Assembly (NCBI GenBank): GCA_017618195.1
Contig: JAFZUW010000010.1
Location: 34,690 to 98,689, forward strand
Reading direction: 5' to 3'
Source of the DNA: Lachnospiraceae bacterium
GTDB lineage: Bacteria; Bacillota; Clostridia; Lachnospirales; Lachnospiraceae
DNA length: 64,000 nucleotides
Below the pieces are notes generated by a model. It was given only the letters and a program-made list of their open reading frames with translations, ran no database searches and had not been told where the DNA came from. Below are positions 5,847 through 54,945 of this stretch, piece after piece (position 1 is the first letter of the stretch; each line of letters starts with the position of its first letter). Position numbers and translations under genes: made by a program.

Positions 5847-8800
5847 ATGAAACATCGGATTGAAAAACCAATCACAAAGCTTGTTTCGGCTGTAATGACC
5901 GCCCTCCTTGTGTTTAATTTGATCCCGGTTGGTTCATTTCGTACCAGAGCGGAGGGTGACGAGCCTTTAGTCAGCGCGAATTATACTCTTGTGTATAATG
6001 ACGATGTGCAGGGAATCACTCCCATTTATATCGGTGGATCGTTTGAGCTGACCAATACCGCGGACGAGAGTGAAAAGCATTCCGGAGAAGTGGACGGAGG
6101 ACGCTTTGAGGTGACCGGTTTTACGGATGGGGCGACCTATTCCCTAAACCTTAAGCTGAACGATGCAACAGACTGGTTCTGCGATATCGCGGGGAACCGT
6201 TTCTTCAGAATGCCCGTCCTGCCCATGAACGTCGTTTTGAACAATACCCTTTCGGGAACGATTGTCTGCAGCCGGATCGGCGAGGCGCAGTACAGCGGTT
6301 CCGTTCGGGATACGGAGGGAAATCCGGTTGAAAACGCAAGCGTAATTGTTTCCTCTGTCGGATCGTATCTGCTCGTTATTCCTTATACGGGACAGACCGA
6401 TTCGCAGGGCAATTACACGATCAATCTTCCGGACCTGCCGGGACAAAGTATCGAAATGGAGATTTCGAAGGACGGTCATTATTCCGCTTCGATTTCGGCA
6501 ATTCCCGCGGAAGGCAGGAGTTTCGGGGAGAGCACGCTGAACAATATTAAACCCGACCGGACCAAACCGGTGATTTCGGTACCGCAGTCGGAAGACCGGT
6601 TCGACTATTATGATGCATCGGGACTCGGACGTGCCGGCGTAACGAAGGCTCGGATACAGTTTAAGGACGAAACTCCCGCTGACCCTTACGAGGAAGTAAG
6701 CGGGCTGAAAAAGATTTATATTATCGACGAAGCGCTCGGAACATTTGAGGACGTACGGCAGAAGGTTACCGATCCGATCACCCTGGACGGAGAAACCTCT
6801 TATACGTATGTTTTCGACGTCACGCCCGGCAAGGTTTACACGATTTATGCCGAAGATGCGCAGGGCAATCACTCCGAAGCGTACACCGTAACCTATCAGA
6901 ATGACGATCAGCCGCCCGTTTATTGGAACGCGGGCCTTTATACCGATCCGGAAACCAACGATCAGACGGGGATTACGGTAAAGACGGACGGATATCATTC
7001 GCCGCAGACGGTTTATCTCCGTTTCGAGACCAATGATACCGGAAGCAACGTGAATTCCGGTGTGGATCATGCCGAAGTATTCGTTAAGAGTAAAACTTCC
7101 GAAGGATACGATCGTTATGCAGTGGCTGAACCGAACGGCGCGAATGTCTGCTGCATAGAACTGACCGGCAGCACATTTAACGACTACCGGAAGCTCGGAG
7201 TTGTTATTTACGACAAGGCCGGAAACGGAACCGCCTTGATGTCGCTTACCGATATGAATCTGCAGAAGGACTGCCTGGCAATCGGAAGCATGAAGCCGGT
7301 CATCACGGAGGCTGTGGAAGGCACGAGCGTCAGCCCGATTGAGGGTGTACCCGGCAGCGTATTTAAGGATCCGCCGAAGTTCACATTTACCTTTACCGAC
7401 CCTGAGGAAATCGGATTCACGGATATTACCGTTAAGGTTAACGGTACCGTCTGGACTCCGGAAACCGATGAGGAGATTCTGCTCGCGGACATTCCGTATG
7501 CATCCGGAACGCAGATTGAGCTTTGCGATCCGAAGGACGAGGAAGGAAACAGTCTTCTTAAGGAAGGCAGCAACGACATTGTGGTAAGCTGCACGAGTCT
7601 GTCGGGTTCGGCATCGAAGTCCTATCAGTATATTCTTGACACGAAGGCTCCCGTGATCTCGAAGATTACGGTGGACCCGTATTCGGAAGGAACCGCGCTC
7701 GGTATAACAAACGGCATTGTTTATTCGACCGGAGCGGTTAAGGTTACGGTTGAAGCCGCAGACGGAACGACCTTTGCAGGTCTTTCGAGCGTAACGCTTC
7801 TGAATGACGGAACCGACTATAAAACGGAAGCGGTAACGGAAGGAAACAAAGCGGTATTCGTGATTCCGCTTGACTATTCGGAATCGGTAGATTATTCCCT
7901 CAATATTTCCGTGAAAGCAAAGGATGCTCTCGGAAATGAAACGTCAGAGACGATTCTGACCGCAGAGAATTCCAATACCGGGACCGGAACCATTTACATT
8001 TCTTCCCGCAAAACCGAGATCACGCTTTCCATTCCGGCTGGGACGGTAATCGGAGAGAAGACGTGGTATTCGGCACCGCCGGTTCTTTCGGTTTCGGCGA
8101 AGGACGAATTTGCCGGAATCTCCAAGATTTACGTGAGTGTTAACGGCCGGGAAGTGGAAGGATCGCCGTTTACATTTACCGACGTTCCCTTACCCACGGA
8201 GAAAACGCTGGAAACTGCGTTTGAAGCGGCCCTGGCGGAGGAATCCGGCTTATGTCACATCATCGTTACCGTGATGAACGGTGCCGGAGCGCTGACCAAT
8301 ACGCAGAAAGAGATTTATCTGGACTGCAGTGCGCCGGAGGTAGATGCATTCGGTCTTGATGCGTCGGAAGGTTATTCACTGAATCTTACCGAACACGGAA
8401 ATTATGCGAACGGACCGATTGAAGTGACCGTTTCGGCACAGGATGACCGTGTCGGGATTGAAAAGATTGTTCTTCTGGCTGACGGAACGGAAATCGCGGA
8501 GCAGGCTCCGGACGCAGACGGAACAGCCGTATTTACCGTATCTCCCGAACAGTTCTCATCGGATATCGTACGGCACAATGTCAGTGCATATGCGGTTGAC
8601 CGTCTCGGAAATGCAGGGGATTCGACGGCACTGATACCTTATGAGAATTCCGATGTACATTCCGAGGACATCGTATTTGACGTTACCGCACCTGATGTGA
8701 CGGGTGCGTTAGAGGAAGGTACTCCCGAAGGAAGAACGACCGGAGAAGGCGAGGCGCAGAAGGTTTGGTATTCCTCCGATGTTACATGGAATATCAGCAT

Positions 8801-11800
8801 TAGCGATTCGGAATCCGGTCTCAAATCATACACCGTGACGCTGAACGGAACCGAGCTGACGGCCGATGCGGACGGAAACGAACTCGTAACGGATTTTTCG
8901 GAATCCGAGCTGCAGTTTGTTTCGAAGTCATTCCGAATCTCGACCTCGCAGGCCGGCGGCAAATCGGATTGTTCTTACGAACTGATCGTTTCCGCAACGG
9001 ACAATGCGGGCAACGTCAGCGAAGTATTCCGACAGGTTGTATATATTGACGGTTCGGCCCCGATAATAACGGATTTCAACTTTGCAACGCTTGATTCGGA
9101 CGGAACCCTTTACATTTATCCTTATGATGCATATGCAAACGGACCGATTCTTGTTAAGGTTAAGGCAAGAGATAATGCGTCCGGCCCGAACTCCGGAGTA
9201 GAGAAGATTCTTCTCTACGTAAACGGAGAGCTTTTCGCAGAGCAGGCAGTAAACCCCGAAACCGGAGAGGCAGTATTCACGGTTCCCGCGGAGGAACTTC
9301 CGGAAGGGTATGCCCAGACGCTCCTTTTGAGCGCCAAGGCCGTGGATGCTTCGGGACTGACCGGGGACGAGAAGAAGCCGAAGGAAGCCGCCACGAACAT
9401 AGCAACGAATACCGTTACCATTGATACCGTTGCTCCGACCATGGACGTAAGCCTTCCCGAACAGGGACAGTTTGTTCTCGATGACCAGATCTGGTACAAG
9501 GATGATTTTGAATTCGTTATCACCGGGCAGGACGCACAGTCCGGAATCAATATGTTCGAACTGCGCATTAACGGCACCGAGATTACCGCCGACGCGGAAG
9601 GAACGCCGATTCCCGTAGGTTACGGCAGTGAAAGTGCTCCGGACAAGCAGCTTCCGGAATTCCGCTTTAAGTCGGAAGATTATGCAGACAACAACGATAC
9701 GATCGTGATTGACGCAAAGCTTCGCGACAGCGCGGGAAATGTCACAACCGTTAAGAAGACGATACGGATTGACCGCAAGGTTCCCGTAATCACCGGTTTC
9801 GCATTGAAGCCCGTTGCGGAGGCAGACAGTCTGAATTATCTCCGTTTCGGTTCGTTTGCCAACGGCAAAGTGGAAGTTACGGTTTACGTATCCGATGAAG
9901 CACCTTCGGCCGGAGCCGGCACCGTAATGCTTTATCTGCATACCGGTGACGTTGCATATCTGGCAGCGGAAGTGATTGACGGCAAAGCCGTATTCGTAGT
10001 TCCCGAGAGTGAGCTTGTTTCCGGCGCGGACGAAGAATACACATTTTCCGCAATCCCGATAGACGCAGTCATTAATTACGGAACGAGAAAATCACTTGAT
10101 TCACAGTTTATTCCCGAGATGGCGGTTCCTTTGCTTCGGGTTGAGAATATCGCGCCGACCGTATCGGTTGAGAAAGACGGAACTCCCGGAAAAACGGCCA
10201 ACGGAATGCAGTGGCATCTGTCGGACGTCGTTTGGAACGTTTCGATTGCGGATGCACAGTCCGGAATCGCATCGGTATCCGTTACGATGAACGGAACGAA
10301 GCTTCAGGAGGACGTTAACGGACAGACCGTTGGTTCCGCTTACGGAGAAGGCGATGAGGCGGTTCCTGCTTTGCAGTTTGCCTTCAGTTCCGCGCAGGCT
10401 GCCGTTACCGCCGGCAATTCGGTAACGATTGAAATCACGGCAACCGATAATGCGGGCAATGTCAGCACGCTTTATAAAGACACCATTTACAAAGATTCCA
10501 CGGCACCGGTGATCAAGGGCTTTAAGTTCCAGCAGCAGGGCGGAACGGAGAGCGGACTGATCGCGGCAGGTTCCACGCTGAGCGAGATGGGATATTTCTT
10601 CGCCCGTGATACCGTTGTGCGGATCAGCGCCGAGGATCCGGACCAGGGCTCCGGAATCAAGAGCATTACTTATTATCTGAAGAATGCCGACGGCACGGAG
10701 ACAGCGGCGCAGACCGCTGCGGCCGATGCGAACGGCGACGTCTTCATAACGATCAAGGCCCCGTTCAAGGGTCAGATCTTCGCGAAGGCCGCCGACGAAC
10801 TTTCCAATACGGGCGATTACGCAAGCGTAAAGGGAATCGTTGTGGAGAATCCGGAAAGCCACGGTGCGGAAACGCATATCACGTTCGGCAAGGGTCAGCC
10901 GACCGGCGCACAGACGAACGGTACGGAGCTTTATAACACGAACGTGGAACTGAATCTGCGGATCACGGACCGCTACTCCGGAATCAAGGCAGTTGAGTGG
11001 TCGGTAACGGCACCCGCCGATCAGGCCAGAAACCAGGCGGCAGCCCTTACGATCAATGAAAACGGTGCAATGAACGGAGACGCGGGCTGGACCGTACTTG
11101 CAAGCGACGGCAAGCTTGTTACGGATATGTCAAAGACCATCACCGTATCCAACGACAGCAATGATATTGTTGTACGCGTGCGGATGCGTGACGGAGCCGG
11201 AAACGTTTCCGAGAGACAGCTTACGTTCGGCATTGATAAGACGATCCCGACGGTTGAGATCGGTTTCGATAACAACAATACGGATGCGGATCACGGTTAC
11301 ATTTACAATCAGCCGAGAACGATGACAATCACGGTAACCGAGAGAAACTTCATTGCCGCCGATTTCATCTGCGGAATCCGTGCTTCGGACGGAACCGCTC
11401 CTGCAATTTCCAAATGGACGGAGGAACGGGATCCTAACGACCCGAACCGTGTCGTACATACCGCCACCGTATATTTCTCGGCGGACAGTACTTATAATGT
11501 AAACCTTTCTTATGCGGACAGGGCAGGCAACAGAGCCGGAATTCCGGCAGTACCGGTCTTTATCATTGACCGAACGAAGCCCGTTATCCGTGTTTCGTTC
11601 GACAATAATAAGGCAAGTAGCGAAAACTACTATAATCAGGCTCGTACCGCTACCGTAACGGTAACCGAGCGGAACTTCGACGTATCCCGCGTATCCCTTG
11701 AAGGAAATGCGAAGATGGGCAACTGGACGGCTAACGGAGATCAGCACAGCGTTACGCTTACGTTCGAAAAGGACGGCACGTACGACCTGAAGATTTCCGC

Positions 11801-21394: not shown

Positions 21395-21428
21395 CGGAAA
21401 ATGCGGCGAAAAAACGGCACATTTTCCG
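21395..21428. repeat. Inverted repeat in the leader of the sigma-factor gene
   Basis: CGGAAAATG (21395-21403) pairs perfectly with CATTTTCCG (21420-21428), with a 16-base loop. There is no T-run afterwards. It could be an operator or an mRNA hairpin upstream of the AGGAGGG site at about 21449. Confidence 0.5.
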
Positions 21429-21462
21429 TCTAAAGGACAGAAGAGCAAAGGAGGGAACCTAA

Positions 21463-21999
21463 ATGGACAACGGTGCAAGTAGCTACCGCCGTTTCCTGGA
21501 CGGTGACGATGAGGGACTCCGCAGGATCATCGATTTGTATTATGACGGACTGGCGCTTTATCTGAACGCCTATCTGAATAATCTTACGGATGCCGAGGAC
21601 TGTGCCGAGGAAGCCATGATTGTTCTGGCGACCAAAAAACCGCGATTCGCGGGAAGGTCGTCTTTTAAGACATGGCTTTATACAATCGGACGTAATCTGG
21701 CAATTGACCGGATCCGGTGCAAACCGCCGGAAACGGAGCCTTTGTCGGAGGATCTCAGATGTTACGGATACGGTGAGGGGAACGCCGAAGCGATTCTTGT
21801 CGAGCGGGAAGAACGGGAACGGTTAACGAGCGCAATGAATGATCTGCGTCCGGAATACCGGAAGGTTCTGACGCTTAAGTTTTACGAAGGAATGGAACTC
21901 AGTGAGATAGCAGGAGTCATGGGAAAGTCTTCGGCCGGAATCTATCATCTTTTTGAGCGCGCCAAAAAGTCGCTTCGTATGAAGTTAGAGAATAGATAA
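21463..21999 (+). CDS. ECF-like sigma-70 family RNA polymerase sigma factor
   Basis: 178 residues. Region 2 (about 10-80) includes YLNNLTDAEDCAEEAMIVL and SSFKTWLYTIGRNLAIDRIR, the helix that melts and reads the -10 element. Region 4 (about 115-175) has LRPEYRKVLTLKFYEGMELSEIAGVMGKSSAGIYHLFERAK split around the usual helix-turn-helix. This two-domain plan fits an ECF sigma factor. The ATG follows a strong AGGAGGG. The next gene begins 44 bases downstream and encodes a protein with one membrane helix and an outside sensor-like domain, a likely anti-sigma partner. A second sigma factor of similar size is at 54281. Confidence 0.93.
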   Translation: MDNGASSYRRFLDGDDEGLRRIIDLYYDGLALYLNAYLNNLTDAEDCAEEAMIVLATKKPRFAGRSSFKTWLYTIGRNLAIDRIRCKPPETEPLSEDLRCYGYGEGNAEAILVEREERERLTSAMNDLRPEYRKVLTLKFYEGMELSEIAGVMGKSSAGIYHLFERAKKSLRMKLENR

Positions 22000-22043
22000 G
22001 GGAAGGAGGAAAGACCGATACCTTATAAAGTCGGAGGAAGAAT

Positions 22044-23552
22044 ATGAGAGATCATGACGAAGTGTTCCGGAGAGTGATGAAAGCAAAGGAACAGTACGAA
22101 CAACAGGAAAAGGAGAAAAAAATGTTTAAGCTTTCGAAGAGTGTGCCGGGTGGGGGCGCACGGTATAAGAAAGAAGGACGAAAGTCCTCTAAGCTGTTTG
22201 TGTGGGGAATGCGTGCCGCAGCCGCATTGCTGTGGGTTGTGCTGATCGGCGGAACCGCAGCCGCCGTATATTACGGAGTAAAGAATAAGAACGGAAAAGG
22301 CCCCCTTTCCGGCGGAAACCCGACGGAACAGGTGAGCAATACACCGGCCGGAAACGCCGCAGACACAACGCTTACGCTGTGGTGTACTGCCGCGGAGGGC
22401 TCATACGACAAGGTGGCGTTTGATCGGGCGATTGCCGAGATGCGGGTGAAATATCCGAATATTGAACTTCGGAAGGAAGCCTGTAATGAACCGGAATTAA
22501 TAATGAAGGTTAAAAATGCACTTCAGCAGGGAACGGCGCCCGACATCTTCTGGGTGGGGGACGACTATTCTCTTGACAATATGGCTGCGCTCGGACAGGT
22601 ATACTGTTTAGACGGCGCATATGCGGACTTTGCGGATGCTTTGTCCGGAGTGATGTGCGGACCCGTTACGTATAACGGACATCTGTACGGCGTTCCGTAT
22701 ACATTGAACACCGGAGTTCTTTATGTAAACAGGGAAGTGCTTCTTGCGGCCGGCATAGACGCGGTTCCTTCCACTTATGATGAACTGATCGCGTGCTGCG
22801 ATACATTATGCCAAAACGGTGTGGTTCCGTTCGGGTGTGCAACGGGACATTATTCGGAATGGTGCATGAGCGAGTTTCTCGAGCAGCTGATCATCAAGAA
22901 TGCCGGAACTTCGGCGCTTGAAGCAATCTATCGGAATGACGCATCCTGGCAGAACCCGGCTATTGCGGAAGCGATTGATGAATATGAGGAATATGTCAGG
23001 AAAGGATATCTTCCTTCTGCTGATGCCAATCTCGAAAACGAAGATGTAAAGGCAGGTTTTATGAGCGGCAATTATGCATTCTTTGTGGGCGGGAGCTGGT
23101 ACTGTAAGGATTTTGCGGAAAGCGGATGTGATATTGTTGCAGTTGAGTTTCCTGTGATGGACAGTACAAATGCAGGTGCCGGCCAGTTCCTCTGCGGATC
23201 GAACGGAATCCTTGCAGTGAACAACAGTTCTGCGAACAAGGAACTTGCAGCGCAGTACGCGATGGAACTGGCGCAGCTTGTTTCAAAGTATATTTATCTT
23301 GACGGTATGGGACTTCCGGCATGGAAGGTGAATTACGAAGTGAGCGGTGTAAATGCACTTTCCGTACAGGTTGTGGGAATGCTCCGGCAGGCTGACGGCC
23401 TTGTCCTTTTCAGCGATCACGTGATGGATACCGATACGCAAATAACATATATGAATCTGATCCGCAGGGCTTATAACCGCGAAATTAACGGCGCGGCATT
23501 TACCGCGGCCATGGATGCGTTTCGAGCGGAGCAGAATGAAAGCGAAGAATAA
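22044..23552 (+). CDS. Membrane protein with cytoplasmic tail, one helix and an extracellular solute-binding domain; candidate sensor anti-sigma factor
   Basis: 502 residues. The first 50 or so are charged and cytoplasmic (EVFRRVMKAKEQYEQQEKEKK). One membrane helix follows at about 55-78 (MRAAAALLWVVLIGGTAAAVYYG), then a Pro/Gly/Asn linker. From about residue 110 the protein is a cluster B/D extracellular solute-binding domain: TLTLWCTAAEG, ALQQGTAPDIFWVGDD, GHLYGVPYTLNTGVLYVNREVL, PSTYDELIACCDTL, FMSGNYAFFVGGSWY. There is no lipobox and no transporter gene nearby. The layout (sigma factor immediately upstream, cytoplasmic segment before the helix, binding domain outside) matches carbohydrate-sensing anti-sigma proteins in principle, but with a binding-protein fold as sensor. 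No recognised anti-sigma domain is visible in the short tail, so the role is inference. Start: ATG behind GGAGGAAGA. Confidence 0.82.
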   Translation: MRDHDEVFRRVMKAKEQYEQQEKEKKMFKLSKSVPGGGARYKKEGRKSSKLFVWGMRAAAALLWVVLIGGTAAAVYYGVKNKNGKGPLSGGNPTEQVSNTPAGNAADTTLTLWCTAAEGSYDKVAFDRAIAEMRVKYPNIELRKEACNEPELIMKVKNALQQGTAPDIFWVGDDYSLDNMAALGQVYCLDGAYADFADALSGVMCGPVTYNGHLYGVPYTLNTGVLYVNREVLLAAGIDAVPSTYDELIACCDTLCQNGVVPFGCATGHYSEWCMSEFLEQLIIKNAGTSALEAIYRNDASWQNPAIAEAIDEYEEYVRKGYLPSADANLENEDVKAGFMSGNYAFFVGGSWYCKDFAESGCDIVAVEFPVMDSTNAGAGQFLCGSNGILAVNNSSANKELAAQYAMELAQLVSKYIYLDGMGLPAWKVNYEVSGVNALSVQVVGMLRQADGLVLFSDHVMDTDTQITYMNLIRRAYNREINGAAFTAAMDAFRAEQNESEE

Positions 23553-24135: not shown

Positions 24136-24183
24136 AAAAGCAGTTTACCGGGATTGCCCCGGAAAGAAAGGAACACATTTTAT

Positions 24184-28115: not shown

Positions 28116-29087
28116 ATGTTCAGAAAAAGATTGTGCGTAATAAGTCTTGTACTGCTGCTTGTCCTGACGGGGTGCGGCAAGGGCGGAGAGGAAAAGGGCG
28201 ACACCAGGCTTGTGCTTGGGTTCAGCCAGATCGGAAGCGAAAGCGCGTGGCGGATCGGAAACACGAGAGACATTGAAGAGCAGGCCGCCGCGTACGGCAT
28301 CGGACTGATGCTTGAAAATGCAAATCAGAAGCAGGAGAACCAGATTGCGGCGATACGGCGCTTTATTGCCTATAAGGTGGACGCGATCGTATTTTCCCCG
28401 GTTGTAGAGGAAGGCTGGGACAACGTGCTCTTAGAGGCGAAGGACGCCGGAATTCCGGTAATCCTCGTGGACAGGGACATCAATACCGAGCAGGAGGGGC
28501 TTACCACGTGCCTGATCGGCGCCGACTTCTATAAGGAAGGCGTCATGGCAGCAGAGTACCTGATCCGCAAGGCGGACAGTCTCGGTTTAGAGCATGTCAA
28601 TATTGTCGAGATCACCGGCACGGAGCATTCGACACCCATGCGTCAGCGGCAGGCGGGCTTCATGGATACGATTGCCGGGGACCCGCGCATGAACGTTCTC
28701 GAAAGCATCGACGGAGACTTCTTAAAGAGCCGCGGCGCGGAATGCATGCGGTATTATCTTCAGAAATACGGCGATACGATCGATATCGTGTTCTCACATA
28801 ACGACGAGATGACGATCGGAGCGCTTCCCGAGATTGAAAAGGCCGGACTCGTGCCCGGAAGGGACATCATCATCATTTCAATTGACGGCGGCCAGGAGGC
28901 GATTGACGTTTTGAAGGAGGGCAAGATCAACTGCGTGGTGGAGTGCACTCCGAAACTCGGCAAGGAACTGATGGAAACCGCGATCAAACTGAAGAACGGG
29001 GAGAAGGTCGAACCGGTGATCCATCCCGTTGAGCAGGTATTCAGCGATGAGATAAACGTTTCCGCGATCGCCCCGAGAGGGTACTAG
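28116..29087 (+). CDS. YtfQ-like sugar-binding lipoprotein linked to a two-component system
   Basis: 323 residues. Lipoprotein signal with lipobox LTGC (Cys near 20). The mature protein is a type I periplasmic binding fold: GFSQIGSESAWR, QKQENQIAAIRRFI, VDAIVFSPVVEEGWD, VILVDRDI, FSHNDEMTIGALPEIEKAGL, SIDGGQEAID. These blocks are very similar to E. coli YtfQ (galactofuranose-binding). There is no permease directly after it; instead a LytS/YesM-type kinase starts 21 bases later. It therefore probably presents a sugar to the kinase sensor domain rather than, or as well as, feeding the importer further downstream. Galactofuranose or a related furanose is the likely ligand by family. Confidence 0.87.
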   Translation: MFRKRLCVISLVLLLVLTGCGKGGEEKGDTRLVLGFSQIGSESAWRIGNTRDIEEQAAAYGIGLMLENANQKQENQIAAIRRFIAYKVDAIVFSPVVEEGWDNVLLEAKDAGIPVILVDRDINTEQEGLTTCLIGADFYKEGVMAAEYLIRKADSLGLEHVNIVEITGTEHSTPMRQRQAGFMDTIAGDPRMNVLESIDGDFLKSRGAECMRYYLQKYGDTIDIVFSHNDEMTIGALPEIEKAGLVPGRDIIIISIDGGQEAIDVLKEGKINCVVECTPKLGKELMETAIKLKNGEKVEPVIHPVEQVFSDEINVSAIAPRGY

Positions 29088-29108
29088 TGCGGGAAAGGCA
29101 GGCGCGTA

Positions 29109-30575
29109 ATGGCCAGAAACAAAAAAGAAAGAAGCATACTCGGGCAGATTACCGATCTGAGCCACCGGCTTGTGTTCATGCTCATGATCCCGATTGTCAT
29201 CAGCTTGGTAATGATGCTTTTTTATGCCGGCAAATACCATAACTCGATCGACCGTATGGAAACCGTCGCCAATCTGAAAACCGTCGTAAACGAGGATATC
29301 CCCGGAAGCGGATGGAATATCGTAAGCGGCCGGGAGACCATTGATGAGAGCCGGATCTATTCGCAGATTAGGAAGGTTAACGATACGATTGAGTCGATCA
29401 CGGAGCAGACGGATGAGGAAAGCCGTCTTTCGCTGATCGTTGCAAGGCGTACCATGCAGACGCTTGAGAACTATGTGGACCGCATCCGTGACAACATTAA
29501 AAACGACGTTCCGGTTGTGGAGAACGAAGCCGTTCTGGAGGAAGTCCGCGGCGTGGCTTCTCTTGTCGACAGCATGTTTACGGAATATATCGAAAAGGAA
29601 ATCAACTCCGCGGAGCGCATGAGCTTAAGCCTGCGGCTCTGGGTGCTGCTTACCGCCGTTGCGGAGGTGCTGATCATCATCGTTGCATTGGTCGTAAGAA
29701 ACCGTTCGGTTAAAGCGACCGCGGCGTCGGTCCGTCTGCCGATCGAGAGACTGGAGGAGGCAGCCAGCCGGATCGCGGAAGGTTCGCTTGACGCGAAGAT
29801 CGAGGATACGAACGTAACCGAGTTGCGGAATCTGACGATTCAGGTAAATACGATGGCGGACAGGCTGAAGGAAATGATGAAAAAGAGCAGCCAGGACGCG
29901 AGAAACCTCCGGAAAGCGGAGCTTCGAACGCTTCAGGCGCAGATCAATCCGCATTTTCTGTATAATACGCTCGATGCGATCGTCTGGAAGGCGGAGGCGG
30001 GCGAGAAGGACGAAGTTATCCACCTTACGAGCGCGCTGAGCGACTTCTTCCGGATCAGTCTTTCTTCGGGCGCCGACTGGATCCCGATCAGCCAGGAGAA
30101 GAAGCATATAGAAGGTTATCTGAAGATCCAGCAGACCAGATACCGCGACATTATGGATTATGAGATCGACATTCCGGACGACATCGGCGAGTATTACATC
30201 TTAAAGCTCCTGCTGCAGCCGCTTGTCGAGAACGCGCTGTATCACGGGATCAAGATCAAGCGCGGCGGCGGAACGATCAAGGTTTCCGGCAGACTCGAGG
30301 ACGGGTACCTGGTATTCTGCGTTAAGGATACGGGGCTTGGGATGAGTCCCGAGCAGCTGCATGACCTGAAGGAACGGATGAAGAAGGGGCAGCCCACCGT
30401 AAGCGTGGGAGGCGGCGGATTCGGACTCGTTAACGTCAACATGCGGATACGGCTTTATTACAATCAGGCGGATGATTTAAAGATAGAGAGCGACGCGGAG
30501 GGCACTTCGGTAACCTTTAAGGTGCCGTGCAGAACCGGAGAGGAGATATATGAAAATGAAAGTGTTTCTGGTTGA
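29109..30575 (+). CDS. LytS/YesM-type sensor histidine kinase
   Basis: 488 residues. Helix 1 at about 18-40, extracellular sensor of about 135 residues, helix 2 at about 176-197, then a HAMP segment (LPIERLEEAASRIAEGSLDAKIED). The His_kinase motif LQAQINPHFLYNTLDAI carries phospho-accepting His282, and an HATPase domain has VKDTGLGMSPEQL and GGGGFGLVNVN. Kinases of this group pair with AraC-type response regulators to control sugar uptake. The upstream lipoprotein is the likely ligand presenter. Its stop codon lies past the start of the regulator gene (26 bases overlap), so the pair is translationally coupled. Confidence 0.94.
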   Translation: MARNKKERSILGQITDLSHRLVFMLMIPIVISLVMMLFYAGKYHNSIDRMETVANLKTVVNEDIPGSGWNIVSGRETIDESRIYSQIRKVNDTIESITEQTDEESRLSLIVARRTMQTLENYVDRIRDNIKNDVPVVENEAVLEEVRGVASLVDSMFTEYIEKEINSAERMSLSLRLWVLLTAVAEVLIIIVALVVRNRSVKATAASVRLPIERLEEAASRIAEGSLDAKIEDTNVTELRNLTIQVNTMADRLKEMMKKSSQDARNLRKAELRTLQAQINPHFLYNTLDAIVWKAEAGEKDEVIHLTSALSDFFRISLSSGADWIPISQEKKHIEGYLKIQQTRYRDIMDYEIDIPDDIGEYYILKLLLQPLVENALYHGIKIKRGGGTIKVSGRLEDGYLVFCVKDTGLGMSPEQLHDLKERMKKGQPTVSVGGGGFGLVNVNMRIRLYYNQADDLKIESDAEGTSVTFKVPCRTGEEIYENESVSG

Positions 30576-31803
30576 CGATGAGATCGTTGTCAGAGAAGGA
30601 ATCCGGGAGTCCTTTCCGTGGGAGGATACGCCGTATGTTCTGGTCGGCGAAGCTCCGGACGGAGAGATGGCGCTTCCGATGATAAGAGACACCAACCCCG
30701 ACATCGTGATCACCGACATCAAAATGCCTTTTATGGACGGTATTGAACTGTGCCGGATCATGCAGACGCAGATGCCCTGGATCGGCGTTATCGTCTTAAG
30801 CGGCTACGACGAGTTCGAGTACGCAAGACAGTGCATCCAGCTCGGCGTCCGCGAATACATGCTGAAACCGATCAACGCAGACGCACTGAAAGAGGCGCTT
30901 GACAAGGTAAGCGCTCAGCTGAAGGCGGAACGGAACACCTTCGAGCATGCGGCAAGCCTTCGTGCAAGAATGGAAAGCGGCGGAAAGCTCGTAAAGGAGA
31001 AGCTGATCGGGTCGCTTTTCTCAAATGAAGCCGCCGAAGAAGACGCCTCCAACGTATTGACGCAGCTTTCGTCTATGGGATGCTCCGTTCCGGCTCCGTA
31101 CTATACGGTCATCGACGCCGCATTTGCCCCCGTAAGCGAAGGGCAGGCTGCTGCGGACGCCCTTTCGGAGAGCGGGATCGCGCTTCCGTCCCCGGGACGC
31201 GTAGGAACCCGGTTTCTGATTCCCGGTGAGACGGCCGAGGATGTGGAGGAAAAGGCGTACGCATTTGCCACAACGCTTGCGAGAGAGCTGGAGCGGACCG
31301 GTTCTTCGGAAATCCGCATCGGAATCGGTGAGATTGTCGACAAGCCCGAGGAGATTTATCAAAGCTTTAAAACCGCGAGGCACATACGCCATCTGCTCGT
31401 GGAGCGAACGGACCGTGAGGCGATCATCTTAGGCTCCCGCGAGATGGGAGAGCCTGCGGACGAAAAGACGCCCGCCGTGATCAGCGAAGCAAAGCTTTAC
31501 ATGTCGTTACACTATACCAATCCGAACCTGATGCTTCAGGACGTCGCGAAGGCGGTCAGCATGAGCAGCAGCCGGTTCTCGACCGTGTTCTCCCAGCAGA
31601 ACGGGCAGACGTTTACGGAATATCTGATGTACCTGCGCCTGAATAAGGCAAAGGAACTGCTTCGTACGACCGGAGAGAGGAGCTCGCAGATCGCGAGGGA
31701 GGTCGGGTATAACGACGCACATTATTTCAGCTATATGTTTAAGAAAAATACCGGAATGACGCCCTCGGATTACCGGGCGCAATATCAAAATCAACCGGAA
31801 TAA
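30550..31803 (+). CDS. YesN-type response regulator with AraC DNA-binding domain
   Basis: 417 residues. Receiver domain 1-120 with the acidic pocket VDDE, phospho-acceptor Asp56 in ITDIKMPFMDG and conserved Lys in MLKPI. The middle region (about 125-310) is of the YesN type without a clear motif. C-terminal AraC/XylS domain (about 315-415): LMLQDVAKAVSMSSSRFSTVFSQQNGQTFTEYL and two helix-turn-helices ending VGYNDAHYFSYMFKKNTGMTPSDYR. When phosphorylated by the adjacent kinase it would activate sugar genes, most likely the importer starting at 31958. The gene overlaps the kinase gene and is followed by a strong terminator. Confidence 0.94.
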   Translation: MKMKVFLVDDEIVVREGIRESFPWEDTPYVLVGEAPDGEMALPMIRDTNPDIVITDIKMPFMDGIELCRIMQTQMPWIGVIVLSGYDEFEYARQCIQLGVREYMLKPINADALKEALDKVSAQLKAERNTFEHAASLRARMESGGKLVKEKLIGSLFSNEAAEEDASNVLTQLSSMGCSVPAPYYTVIDAAFAPVSEGQAAADALSESGIALPSPGRVGTRFLIPGETAEDVEEKAYAFATTLARELERTGSSEIRIGIGEIVDKPEEIYQSFKTARHIRHLLVERTDREAIILGSREMGEPADEKTPAVISEAKLYMSLHYTNPNLMLQDVAKAVSMSSSRFSTVFSQQNGQTFTEYLMYLRLNKAKELLRTTGERSSQIAREVGYNDAHYFSYMFKKNTGMTPSDYRAQYQNQPE

Positions 31804-31814
31804 AAAGATTCTTA

Positions 31815-31854
31815 CCGCGTTTGGAAAAACCGATCCAAACGCGGTTTTATTTTG
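31815..31854 (+). terminator. Intrinsic terminator after the two-component system
   Basis: CCGCGTTTGG (31815-31824) pairs with CCAAACGCGG (31835-31844), followed by TTTTATTTT. It separates the regulatory genes from the importer operon. Confidence 0.88.
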
Positions 31855-31876
31855 AACAAAGTCAAAATGAACCTTG

Positions 31877-31911
31877 ATTTACCGTCCCGCCGAAATACGC
31901 TATCCTTATCC
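31877..31911 (+). promoter_or_regulatory. Possible promoter region of the sugar importer operon
   Basis: TTTACC, 17 bases, TATCCT lie about 50 bases before the start codon, with an overlapping TTGATT. The match is poor, which would suit a promoter that needs an activator such as the AraC-type regulator upstream. Confidence 0.3.
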
Positions 31912-31957
31912 TCGGAAGGCCGATGACGGCCTTATACAAGAAGGAGGTTAGCAAAAA

Positions 31958-32917
31958 ATGCGAAAGTTAAAAGCTTTGTTATTGGTGGTTGCGCTTGTTG
32001 TCTGCTGTATGGCGACGGCTTGCGGAAAAAAGGACGGAGACGGAAAGATCAAGATCGGTGTTGTTAATAACCCGCCGTCGGAGTCCGGTTACCGTGAGGC
32101 AAATGTAAAGGACATGGAAGCTGTTTTCTCCGCGGAGAACGGATACGAGCTCAAGACCTTCTACAGCAAGGTTAATGACGAACAGCTTCAGGCTGCTAAG
32201 GGATTTATCACGGACGGTGTTGATTACCTCCTGATTTCCGCAGCTGAGACGACCGGTTGGGACGACGTTCTCAAGAAGGCAAAGGATGCAGGCGTTAAGG
32301 TTTACATCTTCGACCGTAAGATCGAAGTTGACCAAAGCCTTTATGAGGCAGCCGTTATTTCCGACATGGCAAAAGAAGGCGAGACCGCAGTAAACTGGCT
32401 GCTCGCTCAGAATCTTCCGGAGTACAAGGTTATCCATATCCAGGGCGCTATGGGTTCCGATGCTCAGGTAGGACGTACCGGTGCTCTTGATGCACAGTTT
32501 GCTTCCGGCAAGATGAAGAAGATTGTTCAGCAGACGGCCGGCTGGGACGAAGCAGAAGCTAAGAAGATTGTTGAGACCGTTATCAACAGCGGTGAGGATT
32601 TCAACGTTATCTACGCAGAGAACGACGGTATGGCAAGAGGCGCCGTAGCGGCACTTGACGAGGCCGGTATTACACACGGTGTGGACGGCAAGGTTGTTGT
32701 TATCGGTTTTGACTGCAATAAGTGGGCGCTTCGTGAGCTCCTTGCGGGAAAATGGAACTACGACGGACAGTGCAGCCCGTTCCAGGCAAAGATCATCAGC
32801 GATTTGATCAAGAGCGGTAAGGCTCCTTCCCAGAAGATCATCATCAATGAAGAAAAGGGCTTCGACGCGAAGACCATTACGGAAAATGACATCAACACCT
32901 ACGGTCTTGGTGACTAA
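31958..32917 (+). CDS. Sugar ABC transporter substrate-binding lipoprotein (YtfQ-like)
   Basis: 319 residues. Signal peptide with lipobox-like ATAC (Cys near 22), then a type I periplasmic binding protein: IGVVNNPPSESGYREANVKDM, VDYLLISAAETTGWDDVLKKAKDAGVKVYIFDRKI, IYAENDGMARGAVAALDEAGI, VIGFDCNKWALRELLAG. The GWDDVLKKAKDA and DRKI blocks place it with YtfQ-type furanose-binding proteins. It feeds the ATPase and two permeases that follow. A hairpin terminator between this gene and the ATPase gene should make the binding protein more abundant than the rest. AGGAGG lies just before the ATG. The two YtfQ-like proteins in this locus differ clearly in sequence and may bind different sugars. Confidence 0.92.
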   Translation: MRKLKALLLVVALVVCCMATACGKKDGDGKIKIGVVNNPPSESGYREANVKDMEAVFSAENGYELKTFYSKVNDEQLQAAKGFITDGVDYLLISAAETTGWDDVLKKAKDAGVKVYIFDRKIEVDQSLYEAAVISDMAKEGETAVNWLLAQNLPEYKVIHIQGAMGSDAQVGRTGALDAQFASGKMKKIVQQTAGWDEAEAKKIVETVINSGEDFNVIYAENDGMARGAVAALDEAGITHGVDGKVVVIGFDCNKWALRELLAGKWNYDGQCSPFQAKIISDLIKSGKAPSQKIIINEEKGFDAKTITENDINTYGLGD

Positions 32918-32936
32918 TCGATAATCCGGCGAAATC

Positions 32937-32978
32937 GCGCAGCTGGGCTGAGGCAATCAGCTTCGGCTGCGCTTTTTT
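32937..32978 (+). terminator. Intra-operon attenuating terminator between binding protein and ATPase
   Basis: GCGCAGC (32937-32943) pairs with GCTGCGC (32966-32972), with further pairing of GCTGA and TCAGC inside, then six T residues. Partial readthrough would set the ratio of binding protein to transporter. Confidence 0.8.
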
Positions 32979-33007
32979 CGGGAATCACATGGAAATGGAG
33001 GATTGGC

Positions 33008-34507
33008 ATGCAGGAAGAATGCTTACTGACGATGCGCGGCATCGAAAAACGATTTCCGGGCGTTCTTGCCTTAAACGGTGTGGACTTTTCCTTAAGAAAG
33101 GGAGAAATCCACGCGCTGATGGGAGAAAACGGCGCCGGCAAATCCACCCTGATCAAGGTGCTGACGGGCGTGTATCAGATGGACGGCGGAGAAATACGGC
33201 TGGATGGGGAAAGTATCGTGATCCGTTCGCCGGAAGATGCCCAGAATAAAGGAATCAGCACGGTGTATCAGGAGATTACCCTGTGCCCGAATCTTACCGT
33301 TTCCGAGAACATGTTCATCGGCAGAAAGAGCGGCTTTGTGATTCGGCACAAAGACCGTGAGAAACGCGCGGATGAGATTCTTGAAAGACTCGGAATTCCG
33401 GCAAGAAGCACGCAGCTTCTCGGGAACTGTTCCCTTGCCGTACAGCAGATGGTGGCCATTGCCCGCGCGGTGGACATGCAGTGTAAGGTTTTGATCCTCG
33501 ACGAACCGACCTCGTCCCTCGATGATAACGAAGTGCAGATGTTGTTTAAACTGATGAGGGATCTTCGTGCCCAGGGCGTCGGCATCATATTTGTCACCCA
33601 CTTCTTGGAGCAGGTTTACGAGGTCAGCGATCGGATCACGGTACTTCGGAACGGCGAACTTGTCGGCGAATACCTGACCGAGGAACTGCCGCAGGTACAG
33701 CTTGTTTCAAAGATGATCGGTAAAGAACTCGAAGAGCTCAGCAATCTGGGCGACGGCGACGAAGAAAAAATCATGGAACGGGAAGTGTTCTATGAGGCAA
33801 AGGGGCTTTCGAGCTCCGAGGCGATGCCGTTTGATTTCTCGATCCGGAAGGGCGAAGTCAACGGGTTCACGGGACTTCTCGGTTCGGGACGCAGTGAAAG
33901 CGTCCGCGCAATCTTCGGTGCCGACAAAGTAAACGGCGGCACGGTAACCGTTAAGGGAGAACCGGTTAAGATTACGCGCCCGGTCGATGCGATGCGTCAC
34001 GGCATCGGGTATCTCGCGGAAGACCGTAAACGTGACGGCATCATAGCGGATTTAAGCGTTCGCGAGAACATCATTCTTGCGCTTCAGGTCATGAACGGTT
34101 TGTTTAAGCCGATCAGCCGGAGCGAATCGGAAGCGTTCGCGGACGAGTACATAAAAGCATTAAACATCAAGACAGCAAGCAGGGAGACGCCGGTCGGTTC
34201 ACTTTCCGGCGGAAACCAGCAGAAGGTAATTCTTGCGAGATGGCTTCTGACGCATCCCGATTACCTGATTCTTGATGAGCCCACAAGAGGAATCGACGTG
34301 GGAACCAAACTCGAAATTCAGAAACTTGTCCGGAAACTTTCCGAAGAAGGAATGAGCGTTACCTTTATCTCCTCGGAGGTTGAGGAGATGCTTCGAACCT
34401 GCAGCCGCCTGATTGTCATGCGCGACCGGCACATTGTGGGCGAACTCACCGGCAAGGACCTGAATCAGACGCAGGTGATGAAGACCATTGCGGGAGGTGA
34501 AGCGTGA
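33008..34507 (+). CDS. Sugar ABC transporter ATPase with two nucleotide-binding domains (YtfR/RbsA/MglA type)
   Basis: 499 residues, the standard length for CUT2-class ATPases. Domain 1 has Walker A GENGAGKST (about 39-47), the variant signature NCSLAVQQM, and Walker B VLILDEPTSSLD. Domain 2 has a modified Walker A (GLLGSGRSES), signature LSGGNQQK and YLILDEPTRGID. In this family the first domain hydrolyses ATP and the second is partly degenerate, as seen. It powers import by the two permeases encoded next. The ATG follows a GGAGG site (GGAGGATTGGC). Its stop overlaps the first permease start. Confidence 0.95.
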   Translation: MQEECLLTMRGIEKRFPGVLALNGVDFSLRKGEIHALMGENGAGKSTLIKVLTGVYQMDGGEIRLDGESIVIRSPEDAQNKGISTVYQEITLCPNLTVSENMFIGRKSGFVIRHKDREKRADEILERLGIPARSTQLLGNCSLAVQQMVAIARAVDMQCKVLILDEPTSSLDDNEVQMLFKLMRDLRAQGVGIIFVTHFLEQVYEVSDRITVLRNGELVGEYLTEELPQVQLVSKMIGKELEELSNLGDGDEEKIMEREVFYEAKGLSSSEAMPFDFSIRKGEVNGFTGLLGSGRSESVRAIFGADKVNGGTVTVKGEPVKITRPVDAMRHGIGYLAEDRKRDGIIADLSVRENIILALQVMNGLFKPISRSESEAFADEYIKALNIKTASRETPVGSLSGGNQQKVILARWLLTHPDYLILDEPTRGIDVGTKLEIQKLVRKLSEEGMSVTFISSEVEEMLRTCSRLIVMRDRHIVGELTGKDLNQTQVMKTIAGGEA

Positions 34508-35586
34508 TGAAGATAACCGGTAAAAAACTTTTTCGGAACGGATTCGGCCAGCTGACCATTCCGCTGATCGCGATCGCGCTTCTAGCAGTATTCAATCTGA
34601 TCCGCGACCCGGGCTTCTTCAGCATCGGGATCGCGCATAACAGCGACGGAAACGCCGTATTGTCCGGCAACATCATCAGCATTATCAACGGCGCGAGCGA
34701 ATTGGCGATTCTCGCGATCGGCATGACGCTTGTAACGGCAGCCTGCGGCGGACAGGATATCAGCGTCGGTGCGGCAGCGGCCATCGCGGGCAGCGTGTTC
34801 GTAAAGGTTCTGAAATCGGCGTCCTCGATTAACGGGGGAACGGTTTTACTGGCATTCCTGCTTTCCTGCATCGTGGCAATGCTGTTCGGCGCGTTTAACG
34901 GCACTCTGGTGGCGGTGTTTAAGATCCAGCCGATGATCGCGACGCTGATCCTATATACATGCGGTCGTTCCATCGCATACTGGATCAACGGCGGAGCGAC
35001 GCCTACGATTTCGAATCCGATTCTTTCCGCAATCGGCGGATTCATTCCGGGCATTCCGTTACCGACACCCGTGATCATTGTTGTAGTGATGGCGATTCTG
35101 TTTAAGCTGCTGTTCCATTTTACTTCACTTGAGCTGTTCACGCAGTCCGTCGGAATCAACGGCGCGGCGGCCAGACTGAACGGAATCAATCCGATGTTCA
35201 TCAAGCTGTTGAGCTTCGTACTGCTCGGCGCGTGCGTATCGGCGGCAGGCTGTATCGGCGTGTCCCGTCTCGGACTGATCAATCATGAGACCCTGCTTCT
35301 CGACGTTGAGATGGATGCGATCCTTGCAGTCGCGATCGGCGGAAACAGCCTCGGCGGCGGCCGGTTCAAAATCATCGGCAGCATCCTCGGCGCGTATATC
35401 ATTCAGACGCTTACGATAACGCTTTACGCGATGAAGGTTTCCTCCACGGACGTAAAAGCTTATAAAGCCATCGTCATCGTGCTTCTTGTTGTCATCGGTT
35501 CTCCGGTTGTAAAGCAGCGCTTTACGAAATTCGTGAGGCGTCTTTCGGAAAATCGGAAGAAAGTATCGGCGAAAGGAGCGGAATAA
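34507..35586 (+). CDS. Sugar ABC transporter permease 1 (YtfT-like)
   Basis: 359 residues with about eight to ten hydrophobic helices of the BPD_transp_2 (RbsC-like) family. Typical blocks are LAILAIGMTLVTAACGGQDISVGAAAAIAGSVF, MLFGAFNGTLVAVFKIQPMIATLIL and ILAVAIGGNSLGGGRFKIIGSILGAYIIQTL. With YjfF-like permease 2 it forms the heterodimeric membrane channel, as in the YtfRT-YjfF galactofuranose importer. ATG at 34507 overlaps the ATPase TGA by one base; a GTG one codon earlier is possible. GGGAGGTG inside the ATPase end is the ribosome site. Confidence 0.94.
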   Translation: MKITGKKLFRNGFGQLTIPLIAIALLAVFNLIRDPGFFSIGIAHNSDGNAVLSGNIISIINGASELAILAIGMTLVTAACGGQDISVGAAAAIAGSVFVKVLKSASSINGGTVLLAFLLSCIVAMLFGAFNGTLVAVFKIQPMIATLILYTCGRSIAYWINGGATPTISNPILSAIGGFIPGIPLPTPVIIVVVMAILFKLLFHFTSLELFTQSVGINGAAARLNGINPMFIKLLSFVLLGACVSAAGCIGVSRLGLINHETLLLDVEMDAILAVAIGGNSLGGGRFKIIGSILGAYIIQTLTITLYAMKVSSTDVKAYKAIVIVLLVVIGSPVVKQRFTKFVRRLSENRKKVSAKGAE

Positions 35587-36620
35587 TGATGAAGAAACTT
35601 TTTAAGAGAAAAGAACCGCTTACCGATACCCAGCTTCTGATGACCATTACCATCGGAATCTTCTGTATCATGTACCTTCTTGCGATGATCCTTCTCGGCG
35701 GCGGATTCCTCCGTCCCCAGCAGATCTTCGATATGTTAAATGATAACGCAAGTCTGATCATCGTATCGTGCGGCCTGACCATCGTCATGATCGGCGGCGG
35801 TATCGATATCAGTGTCGGCGCCGTTACTTCGCTTGTCGTGATGAGCTGTGCCATTTACCTGAATAAGGGTGGGAATATATTCCTTTCGATTCTGCTCGCG
35901 GTGGGAATCGGTCTTGCATTCGGTCTGGTTCAGGGCTTTTTGATCAGTTATCTCGAGATTCAGCCGTTCATCGTAACGCTTGCGGGAATGTTCTTCGCAA
36001 GAGGCATGACGACGATTCTTTCCGTTGATCCGCAGAAGGTTACCCATAAGGGCTTCCTTCAGCTTCATAATAACAAGGAAATAAAGATCCGCTGGCTCGG
36101 ACACCGCGTTCCGAACGGAAACGTGATTCCCGCGGAAATGGAAATCGGTGTCATTATCGCACTGTCAATCGTGATTCTCGTATTTCTGCTTTTGAAGTAC
36201 GGCCGTCTCGGACGGAACTTTTACGCAATGGGCGGAAACCAGCAGAGCGCGCTGATGCTCGGTATCAACGTGAAGAAAACCCGTTTTCTCAGTTATGTAA
36301 TCTGCGGACTGCTGAGCGGAATTTCCGGATATGTGTTCCTGATGCATACGGCGGCGGGCAATGCCACGAACGCAGCCGGCATGGAGATGAACGCGATTGC
36401 GTCCTCCATTATCGGCGGCACTCTTCTTACCGGCGGTGTCGGTAACGTGATCGGCACATTTTTCGGCACCTTAAGTCTTACCACCATCAAAAAGATCGTT
36501 GTATCGAGCGGACTGAACGATCCCTGGTGGCAGAGCATCACGACCGGCGGCATGCTTTGTTTCTTTATCCTGCTGCAGAGCGTGGTACTCGGAAGACGTT
36601 CCAAAAAGAAAGAAACCTAA
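35586..36620 (+). CDS. Sugar ABC transporter permease 2 (YjfF-like)
   Basis: 344 residues, about eight helices, again BPD_transp_2 family: LIIVSCGLTIVMIGGGIDISVGAVTSLVVM, LIISYLEIQPFIVTLAGMFFARGM and the terminal ASSIIGGTLLTGGVGNVIGTFFG. Two different permeases in one operon, with a single double-domain ATPase, are diagnostic of the YtfQRT-YjfF subtype rather than ribose or galactose systems, which use one permease gene. The start overlaps the previous stop (TAATG), and AAAGGAG lies upstream. The operon ends at the bidirectional terminator at 36662. Confidence 0.94.
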   Translation: MMKKLFKRKEPLTDTQLLMTITIGIFCIMYLLAMILLGGGFLRPQQIFDMLNDNASLIIVSCGLTIVMIGGGIDISVGAVTSLVVMSCAIYLNKGGNIFLSILLAVGIGLAFGLVQGFLISYLEIQPFIVTLAGMFFARGMTTILSVDPQKVTHKGFLQLHNNKEIKIRWLGHRVPNGNVIPAEMEIGVIIALSIVILVFLLLKYGRLGRNFYAMGGNQQSALMLGINVKKTRFLSYVICGLLSGISGYVFLMHTAAGNATNAAGMEMNAIASSIIGGTLLTGGVGNVIGTFFGTLSLTTIKKIVVSSGLNDPWWQSITTGGMLCFFILLQSVVLGRRSKKKET

Positions 36621-54280: not shown

Positions 54281-54841
54281 ATGCGCACCGATTCGGAATT
54301 ATACAATTCGTTTCTTTCCGGCGAAAACGCGGCTTATGATGAGCTGATGATCCGCCACGGGGATGCGCTGACCGCTTTTCTGAACGGCTACGTTCACAAT
54401 CCGGAGGATGCGGAGGACCTCATGATCGAAGCATTTGCCCGCATCATGATCAAAAAGCCGCAGATCGGTGAGGACAAATTCAAAGCATACCTTTACAAAA
54501 CGGGCCGGAATCTCGTGACGAGGTTCCATTTCCGGCGGACAAGGCTTGAGGTGTTCAGTATCGAGGAACTGGAAGCGGAGCCTGCCGACGGCTCCGGACC
54601 CGCGGAACTGTTTTCGGATAAGAACCGTAAGGAAACGCTTCACCGCTGTATGGACCGGCTTGACCCGCAGGTGCGCGAAGCACTGTGGCTCGTCTATTTT
54701 GAGAATATGAGCTATGCGGAAGCGGCCGAAGTGATGCGGATCAACACCAAGCGGGTGGATCATCTGCTGCAGAGAGGCAAACAGAATCTGCGTACGGAGC
54801 TGGAGAAGGAGGGAATCACGGAATTATGGGATATTTTGTAG
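54281..54841 (+). CDS. ECF-like sigma-70 family RNA polymerase sigma factor (second)
   Basis: 186 residues. Region 2 includes FLNGYVHNPEDAEDLMIEAFARIM and KFKAYLYKTGRNLVTRFHFRRTRLEV. Region 4 includes LDPQVREALWLVYFENMSYAEAAEVMRINTKRVDHLLQRGKQNL. Architecture and length are ECF-like and close to the factor at 21463. No standard anti-sigma gene follows; instead there are a 39-residue membrane peptide, a polytopic protein, and a PrsW-like protease, all overlapping end to start. That order suggests release by regulated intramembrane proteolysis. Start ATG after GGGAGAAGG. Confidence 0.92.
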   Translation: MRTDSELYNSFLSGENAAYDELMIRHGDALTAFLNGYVHNPEDAEDLMIEAFARIMIKKPQIGEDKFKAYLYKTGRNLVTRFHFRRTRLEVFSIEELEAEPADGSGPAELFSDKNRKETLHRCMDRLDPQVREALWLVYFENMSYAEAAEVMRINTKRVDHLLQRGKQNLRTELEKEGITELWDIL

Positions 54842-54945
54842 TCGGATTGATTGCATTTCTTCTCGGGATTTCCGCCGCGGTGTTCGGATACAGCGTGAAA
54901 CGTCTGCATAAAGATTCGCATGAAGACACGGAGGAAACCCGGTGA
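54826..54945 (+). CDS. 39-residue single-helix membrane peptide overlapping the sigma gene
   Basis: An ATG at 54826, inside the last codons of the sigma factor gene, opens a 39-codon frame to TGA at 54943-54945. The peptide has one helix (YFVVGLIAFLLGISAAVFGY) and a charged tail (KRLHKDSHEDTEETR). AAGGAGGG lies about 14 bases upstream. Its stop overlaps the GTG of the following gene (GTGA), so the frame closes a gapless chain of coupled genes. Hydrophobicity, charge pattern and exact overlaps support a real gene. It might bind the sigma factor or the protease; this is inference. Confidence 0.6.
   Translation: MGYFVVGLIAFLLGISAAVFGYSVKRLHKDSHEDTEETR

Follow-up and report, generated by a model that had tools for sequence, protein, structure and literature searches.

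An ECF sigma factor and putative anti-sigma factor gene pair with a solute-binding protein as candidate outer sensor in a Lachnospiraceae bacterium

In the SigI/RsgI systems of Clostridium thermocellum, RsgI is described as having a periplasmic autocleavage domain and sensors that are carbohydrate-binding modules, glycoside hydrolase, PA14, protease-like or other folds (PMC12203970), and RsiV and RsiP are described as being cut by signal peptidase (PMC6066255, PMC8844934). Stimulation by solute-binding proteins (SBPs) is reported for chemoreceptors, for sensor kinases, for cyclic-di-GMP enzymes and for Ser/Thr kinases, and some kinases and regulators are known to contain a sensor domain of the SBP fold (PMC9602780). 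We found no report in the open-licence literature of an SBP or a serpin built into an anti-sigma factor, which is weak evidence of absence. Here we describe a gene pair in a 64,000-nucleotide stretch of a Lachnospiraceae bacterium genome (assembly GCA_017618195.1, contig JAFZUW010000010.1, positions 34,690 to 98,689 of the forward strand; hereafter the window, numbered from its first letter), in which a gene for an extracytoplasmic function (ECF) sigma factor is followed by a gene for a 502-amino-acid protein with an SBP domain. We consider it probable that this second protein is a membrane-anchored anti-sigma factor with the SBP domain as its sensor, and that this domain is one of several interchangeable outer parts.

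A preliminary description of the window had proposed an ECF-like sigma gene followed after 44 bases by a gene for a 502-residue protein, and the open reading frames (ORFs) at exactly 21463-21999 and 22044-23552, with their 44-nucleotide spacer, agree with it. The locus is made up as follows:

21405..21432, + strand: putative ECF-type promoter, GGCGAA, 16-nucleotide spacer and CGTCTA (alignment of upstream regions)
21450..21455, + strand: Shine-Dalgarno-like GGAGGG of the sigma gene (sequence reading; conserved across aligned upstream regions)
21463..21999, + strand: ECF sigma factor, 178 amino acids (Pfam and NCBIfam matches)
22033..22039, + strand: Shine-Dalgarno-like GGAGGAA of the putative anti-sigma gene (sequence reading)
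22044..23552, + strand: putative transmembrane anti-sigma factor with SBP sensor, 502 amino acids (ORF, Pfam, structure match, homologues)
22044..22118, + strand: residues 1-25, conserved tail, predicted helix and candidate sigma-binding segment (identity, model)
22119..22202, + strand: residues 26-53, variable basic cytoplasmic stretch (46% identity)
22203..22277, + strand: residues 54-78, membrane helix; A73 and A74 toward its outer end are nearly invariant (hydropathy peak)
22278..22361, + strand: residues 79-106, low-complexity extracellular linker (37% identity)
22362..23549, + strand: residues 107-502, solute-binding (CUT1/XBP1-like) domain, candidate sensor (Pfam, 4g68, tree)

The sigma protein matches Sigma70_r2 (E 8e-13) and Sigma70_r4_2 (E 2e-11) in Pfam, both above cut-off, and NCBIfam TIGR02937 at 85.8 bits against a cut-off of 42.9; with Sigma70 regions 2 and 4 only and a score above the family cut-off, it belongs with the ECF (group IV) sigma factors. 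The best solved match to the profile of its family (A5) is SigW (5wuq, E 9e-30). Its partner matches SBP_bac_8 (E 6e-25, residues 139-405) and SBP_bac_1 (E 1e-17), and the Pfam scan found no other family in it at E ≤ 0.1. The nearest solved structure is 4g68 (E 1.3e-38 over residues 95-488, and E 1.2e-62 with the orthologue profile), which is the SBP XBP1 from Caldanaerobius polysaccharolyticus with xylotriose (PMC10384115). A simple hydropathy scan revealed a single hydrophobic helix that begins near residue 58, and the protein lacks a lipobox because its first Cys does not come before residue 107, so the charged tail, single helix, full SBP domain and missing lipobox of the preliminary description were all recovered. 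Judged by its sequence, the outer domain is an SBP of the CUT1 transport family, though two traits of that family are missing: residues 1-106 are free of Cys and thus hold no lipobox, and the window and the flanks examined showed no CUT1-type permease. The zinc-binding class I anti-sigma domain has the motif HxxxCxxC, and this class was rejected for the tail protein, as its residues 1-53 contain no Cys. Class II anti-sigma domains are CnrY-like, with two short helices in a tail that wraps around sigma2 and sigma4. Anti-sigma domains shorter than 50 amino acids have been treated as possible class II domains (PMC7406223); the tail here has 53.

A search of 61 relatives returned seven further full-length homologues, 45-62% identical and all from the same genus. 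The orthologous sigma gene lies directly upstream of the fused form in all eight loci including the window, and since the pair recurs in 8/8, the pairing is not due to chance. The preliminary description had asked whether the fused form always stands beside this sigma subgroup, as it does in these eight loci. Its refuting case, homologues mostly without a sigma gene and beside ABC permeases, does not apply to the fused form and holds only for the free SBPs. This recurrence also bears on a reading in which the 502-amino-acid protein is a membrane-tethered uptake binding protein whose sigma neighbor is incidental. Such a reading draws on the facts that the SBP family is a transport family, that its free relatives adjoin permeases, and that a free SBP paralogue in the same genome, downstream of an FGGY-type carbohydrate kinase gene, is followed by two BPD_transp_1 permeases. 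However, in the stretches examined all eight fused forms are beside the sigma gene and none is beside CUT1-type permeases, and the tail is kept when the outer domain is exchanged, as set out below; we therefore regard an uptake role as very improbable.

For the two CUT1-type permeases beside the free paralogue, no relative was found among the 181 window ORFs of at least 80 amino acids or in the surroundings of the other fused loci (0.6-1.5 kb examined per side, and 3.4 kb on one side for L100). The earlier statement that no transporter is near is thus right for CUT1-type permeases in the window and flanks, but it does not extend to transporters in general: two ABC_membrane/ABC_tran genes start at 24154 and 25889, the first 602 nucleotides downstream of the 502-amino-acid gene, and a CUT2-type importer (Peripla_BP_4, ABC_tran and two BPD_transp_2 genes) occupies 31958-36620, 8.4 kb downstream. 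The region 28116-36620 holds, by Pfam, a Peripla_BP_4 lipoprotein, a YesM-like kinase, a YesN-like regulator and then this importer, a separate SBP-kinase sensing system.

In two further species of the genus, G008 and G018, the gene after the orthologous sigma gene (71-72% identical) encodes a protein that keeps the tail and has a helix at the same position but carries a different outer domain. The position of the locus is that of the SBP form, between a metallo-beta-lactamase-fold gene and MarR/ABC genes, and in the sigma tree the two sigma factors of the swapped forms group as sister to the seven SBP-type sigma factors that the tree contains. The outer domain of G018 (L035) has about 330 residues, with no Pfam match at E ≤ 0.01 and no credible match in the PDB; the SBP profile gave E 0.3 or worse against the swapped outer domains, the same as against unrelated ORFs. 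The swapped-form gene of G008 (L034:3811-5182) is broken across two frames, while the G018 copy is a single open frame. In G018 the MarR gene is separated from the swapped putative anti-sigma gene by an extra sigma-like gene and a partner gene (L035:6468-8023). That the tail, the helix position and the orthologous sigma factor are kept across the outer-domain swap in two species is among the observations that favor an anti-sigma factor with an exchangeable outer part. The chain of sigma factor, putative tail anti-sigma factor and candidate SBP sensor is supported by linkage, conservation and the swap.

Conservation is distributed unevenly along the pair. Mean pairwise identity among the eight fused forms was 93% for residues 1-25, 46% for residues 26-53, 63% for the helix, 37% for the linker and 48% for the SBP domain, with the sigma factor at 87%. 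Within the same seven species the sensor SBP averaged 46% identity versus 66% for the free SBP (21 pairs), a comparison in which some free copies may be paralogues and one pair, G001-G021, is reversed (70 versus 59). Between G001 and G013, the sensor SBP reached a synonymous divergence (dS) of 1.39, against 0.35 for the sigma gene and 0.38 for the free SBP, which is consistent with lineages having exchanged the outer domain or with its strongly accelerated change. These differences in rate are what might be expected if the protein were an anti-sigma factor whose SBP domain no longer binds a small ligand and instead serves for spacing, for the docking of proteins or as a rapidly varying surface epitope, the signal being something else such as protease access or another protein. 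Serpins, which are protein binders, occupy the same position in relatives, and six other SBP domains of the genus sit on large proteins with neither this sigma type nor CUT1-type permeases in the 7-13 kb examined, both of which would suit such a role. On the other hand, four Trp residues (W113, W273, W352 and W427) and many other SBP positions are invariant in 8/8 fused forms, and the match to 4g68, solved with xylotriose, covers almost the whole domain. We thus consider a non-binding SBP domain unlikely, though a sensor of this kind deserves more weight than an uptake role. If the domain does bind a small ligand, a sugar is plausible, as suggested by the nearest structure and the transport relatives.

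The outer domain itself may have been acquired within the genus. A quick tree of 31 SBP domains, in which some free rows have long branches, placed the eight sensor domains in a single clade (SH-aLRT 99), which is linked to free SBPs of two species of the genus by a branch with support 97; a single clade nested among the free SBPs of the genus suggests a single capture. Outside the genus, nine of the ten SBPs that match best adjoin CUT1-type permeases, and none of the ten adjoins this sigma type in the stretch examined. A lipobox pattern is present in eight of those nine; the remaining SBP (L196), a longer ORF, lies close to the end of a contig and has no permease beside it. The full-protein profile, with up to three candidates scored per genome so that a miss is possible, matched in 23 of 396 family genomes at E ≤ 1e-70, and full-length matches came only from the two genomes of the genus in that sample. 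The tail profile, run on 150 family genomes, found the source genome and one other weakly (E 9e-4). A scan of genome contigs returned one distant SBP (25% identity), the sigma factor as query matched 78 plasmid records, each below 60% identity, and the viral contigs scanned with the tail alignment contained no relative. The simplest reading is that a single capture event within this genus turned the binding protein of an importer into the outer domain.

The six large SBP ORFs of the genus mentioned above lie in L061-L065. From reading their sequences, three of them carry an N-terminal zinc-ribbon-like segment and a membrane helix (L062:2613-4940, and L064:2888-6676 and 6707-10423, the latter two in tandem), and the remaining three appear lipoprotein-like with extensions.

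Sigma factors related to that of the SBP locus also occur in the wider bacterial family, where a tail or membrane protein mostly comes next. Profile A5, with up to eight candidates scored per genome, gave 73 matches at E ≤ 1e-32 in 51 of 396 family genomes; this sigma factor was also found in 5 of 294 genomes of the order at E ≤ 1e-45. The next gene was tallied at 63 of the 73 loci (of the ten omitted, two lie in stretches examined for another purpose) and encodes a tail or membrane protein in 50, comprising 37 with a single-pass tail and 13 with a short two-pass tail. Tail proteins were called from hydropathy and helix position with no tail motif required, and among the 37 at least L111 has a tail that does not resemble the others. 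The other 13 loci have a multi-pass protein without a tail (six), a tail with more than one predicted helix (two), something else (two) or no ORF of at least 90 amino acids within 200 nucleotides (three). The tail gene overlaps the sigma gene in 42 of the 50, and the clade of the window, with its gap of about 44 nucleotides, is unusual.

The outer parts in this wider family vary. Pfam identified a serpin fused to a tail and helix at three loci (L068:3327-4784, L069:4329-6656 and L133:2855-5005), and a serpin is the next gene after the tail gene at four more (L070:4906-6219 by Pfam; L117:2185-3462, L120:2288-3700 and L121:2079-3314 by similarity to L070). A serpin on a putative anti-sigma factor was unexpected, and it could sense proteases. 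A beta-propeller (PF09826, E 8e-138) sits on a like tail and helix at L125:1468-3360, and the relative at L107 has a DUF4179 outer part (E 1.4e-18), a domain that PMC6066255 describes as apparently confined to particular anti-sigma families, the RsiV family being an example. Gene order, gene overlap, PrsW-containing loci and this DUF4179 relative together resemble known anti-sigma operons (PMC6066255). This resemblance tells against a tail protein that is a membrane partner activating, recruiting or stabilizing the sigma factor, which we judge improbable. On the inhibitor reading, we propose more tentatively, and with slightly more doubt than confidence, that the ECF sigma operons of this bacterial family share a sigma-binding tail and helix as a socket for exchangeable receptors such as SBPs, serpins and beta-propellers, and that the importer SBP of the genus, once captured, now feeds an anti-sigma factor instead of a permease. 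In the second paralogue of the source genome (L066) and in L067, lipoproteins that look SBP-like by eye lie beside the tail gene. They have no Pfam or PDB match, and in a profile comparison their similarity to the window family is weak (probability 49, E 1.7e-4); as their identity as SBPs is unproven, we do not claim a series from separate to fused SBPs.

Upstream of the sigma gene, GGCGAA is followed by exactly 16 nucleotides and a -10 element in 9/9 aligned regions, the letters of the spacer differing; the -10 element is CGTCTA in seven SBP forms and CGACAA in the two swapped forms. An ECF-type promoter precedes the sigma gene in 10/10 testable loci of the clade, including L067 (GCGAA-N16-CGAC), with L010 left out of this count because it begins too close to a contig end. 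The strict motif occurs once in the genome, at its own site. Autoregulation of the sigma operon is likely from the sequence pattern. A looser motif was found in 14 of 70 upstream regions of the family versus 1.5 expected from shuffles. Since clade loci make up ten of these 14, the wider family for the most part lacks such a motif.

The genome also encodes candidates for proteolytic control of the pair. One gene of the site-2-protease type (Peptidase_M50) was found, and two PrsW genes, both beside sigma genes of this family; no PrsW gene lies beside the SBP locus. PrsW is a site-1 protease that acts on RsiW. One of the operons of the same family is in the window itself at 54281-56757 and is a possible model for the family's proteolysis: it consists of an ECF sigma gene (54281-54841), a membrane protein gene, a PrsW gene (55571-56221; PF13367, E 3e-15) and a gene for a tail-like two-helix protein (56425-56757). 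Across ten aligned tail proteins, G69, A73 and A74 of the membrane helix are nearly invariant columns; RsgI helices are described as mostly ending in a C-terminal XAA motif that resembles ClpXP substrates (PMC12203970).

We suggest that the N-terminal helix of about 25 residues in the 502-amino-acid protein would keep the sigma factor bound on the cytoplasmic side of the membrane, with the single helix spanning the membrane and the linker bearing the SBP domain outside, an arrangement read from the sequence anatomy. Closure of the outer domain around a ligand, which is most likely an oligosaccharide, would probably lead to a cut outside the membrane. A second, intramembrane cut by the site-2 protease found in the genome may then free the sigma factor; both cuts are proposed on the model of RsiV and RsgI. 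The freed sigma factor would transcribe at least its own operon, as the conserved promoter motif suggests.

Several observations weigh against an anti-sigma factor with an SBP sensor. The tail was detected in only 11 of the 22 genomes of the genus, several of which are incomplete; these are the eight fused forms, the two with other outer domains and one shorter relative (G009). A tail profile of the wider family, built without the nine SBP-type and swapped proteins of the genus, gave these nine tails just 6.6-12.7 bits (E 0.009-0.77), and the window tail 11.7 bits (E 0.019) among 1648 ORFs, a range that chance ORFs also reach, though these matches begin at the first tail residue. With scores this low, homology between the window tail and the family tails rests more on position, on sigma kinship and on intermediates such as L067 and L109. 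Against the PDB, the tail profile returned only designed affimer/cystatin chains, at E 0.019 or worse. The AlphaFold2 model of the 502-amino-acid protein from eight sequences is also weak (mean pLDDT 60, pTM 0.49): its N-terminal helix at residues 2-32 has mean pLDDT 64, 76 and 46 for residues 1-10, 11-20 and 21-30, a helix at 51-77 has very low confidence, and strands and helices alternate past residue 107. The relaxed promoter pattern occurs in the genome at chance level (12 matches, versus 16 for the reversed control), so that no regulon was found. Finally, at invariant codons, synonymous variation was seen at 4 of 22 in the 3' end of the sigma gene (codons 151-175) and 7 of 20 in the tail, with zero in its first eight codons, versus 56 of 65 in the SBP part, which means that tail conservation is partly at the nucleotide level and not purely a protein-level constraint. 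The swapped forms of G008 and G018 do differ synonymously from the window within the tail.

The conserved synonymous sites span the sigma 3' end to the start of the tail (about 21913-22118 in the window, and the orthologues), and may mark coupling at the RNA level or recombination.

If the anti-sigma reading is true, the binding protein of a sugar importer would have been turned into the outside sensor of a membrane-anchored sigma inhibitor. A sensor with a clear pocket and a clear readout would make ligand-triggered proteolysis of an anti-sigma factor directly testable, and the natural swaps of outer domains on one tail suggest that chimeric sensors could be built in laboratory strains. In the serpin versions, attack by an extracellular protease would become a direct transcription signal.

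Among described systems, RsgI offers a close parallel in its cytoplasmic N-terminal sigma-binding part (a candidate here), single membrane helix and variable outer sensor, which in RsgI is for carbohydrates (PMC12203970). Unlike that system, whose SigI is placed in the separate sigma group V (PMC12203970), the sigma factor here is ECF and the sensor is an SBP. Membership in the RsgI family was rejected, as the 502-amino-acid protein has no RsgI N-terminal domain and only the two SBP families at E ≤ 0.1; a SigI-type partner was rejected too, since the sigma protein passes the ECF superfamily model and no SigI model is among the matches listed (25 of 105). As for the periplasmic autocleavage domain of RsgI, about 28 linker residues lie between helix and SBP domain here, and they gave no Pfam match. 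The preliminary description had put forward the SBP as a different class of sensor. The lack of an RsgI match in Pfam favors this, but the SBP is better seen as one outer part on an anti-sigma-like chassis whose outer domains vary.

RsiV (ECF30; compare RsiP) is likewise a membrane anti-sigma factor that carries a sensor outside, and its degradation begins with signal peptidase and proceeds through a site-2 protease (PMC6066255, PMC8844934). RsiV binds lysozyme, not a small ligand. The 502-amino-acid protein has no DUF4179 match in Pfam, which led us to reject its assignment to the DUF4179/RsiV family. The SigW-RsiW-PrsW system of Bacillus subtilis is similar in that SigW is the best solved match of the sigma profile and PrsW genes lie beside paralogous sigma genes, though the SBP locus has no adjoining PrsW gene and no match to an RsiW-type domain. 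On the side of the sensor, the CUT1 oligosaccharide-binding lipoproteins such as XBP1 (4g68) have a homologous SBP domain; in contrast to them, the 502-amino-acid protein has an added tail and membrane helix and neither a lipobox nor a permease partner. In XylFII-LytS and CuaD-CuaSR, an SBP also senses sugars, and the docked pocket of CuaD has been compared with 4G68, the nearest structure here (PMC10384115). In those systems a separate SBP acts on a histidine kinase, whereas here the SBP would be part of the putative anti-sigma factor itself.

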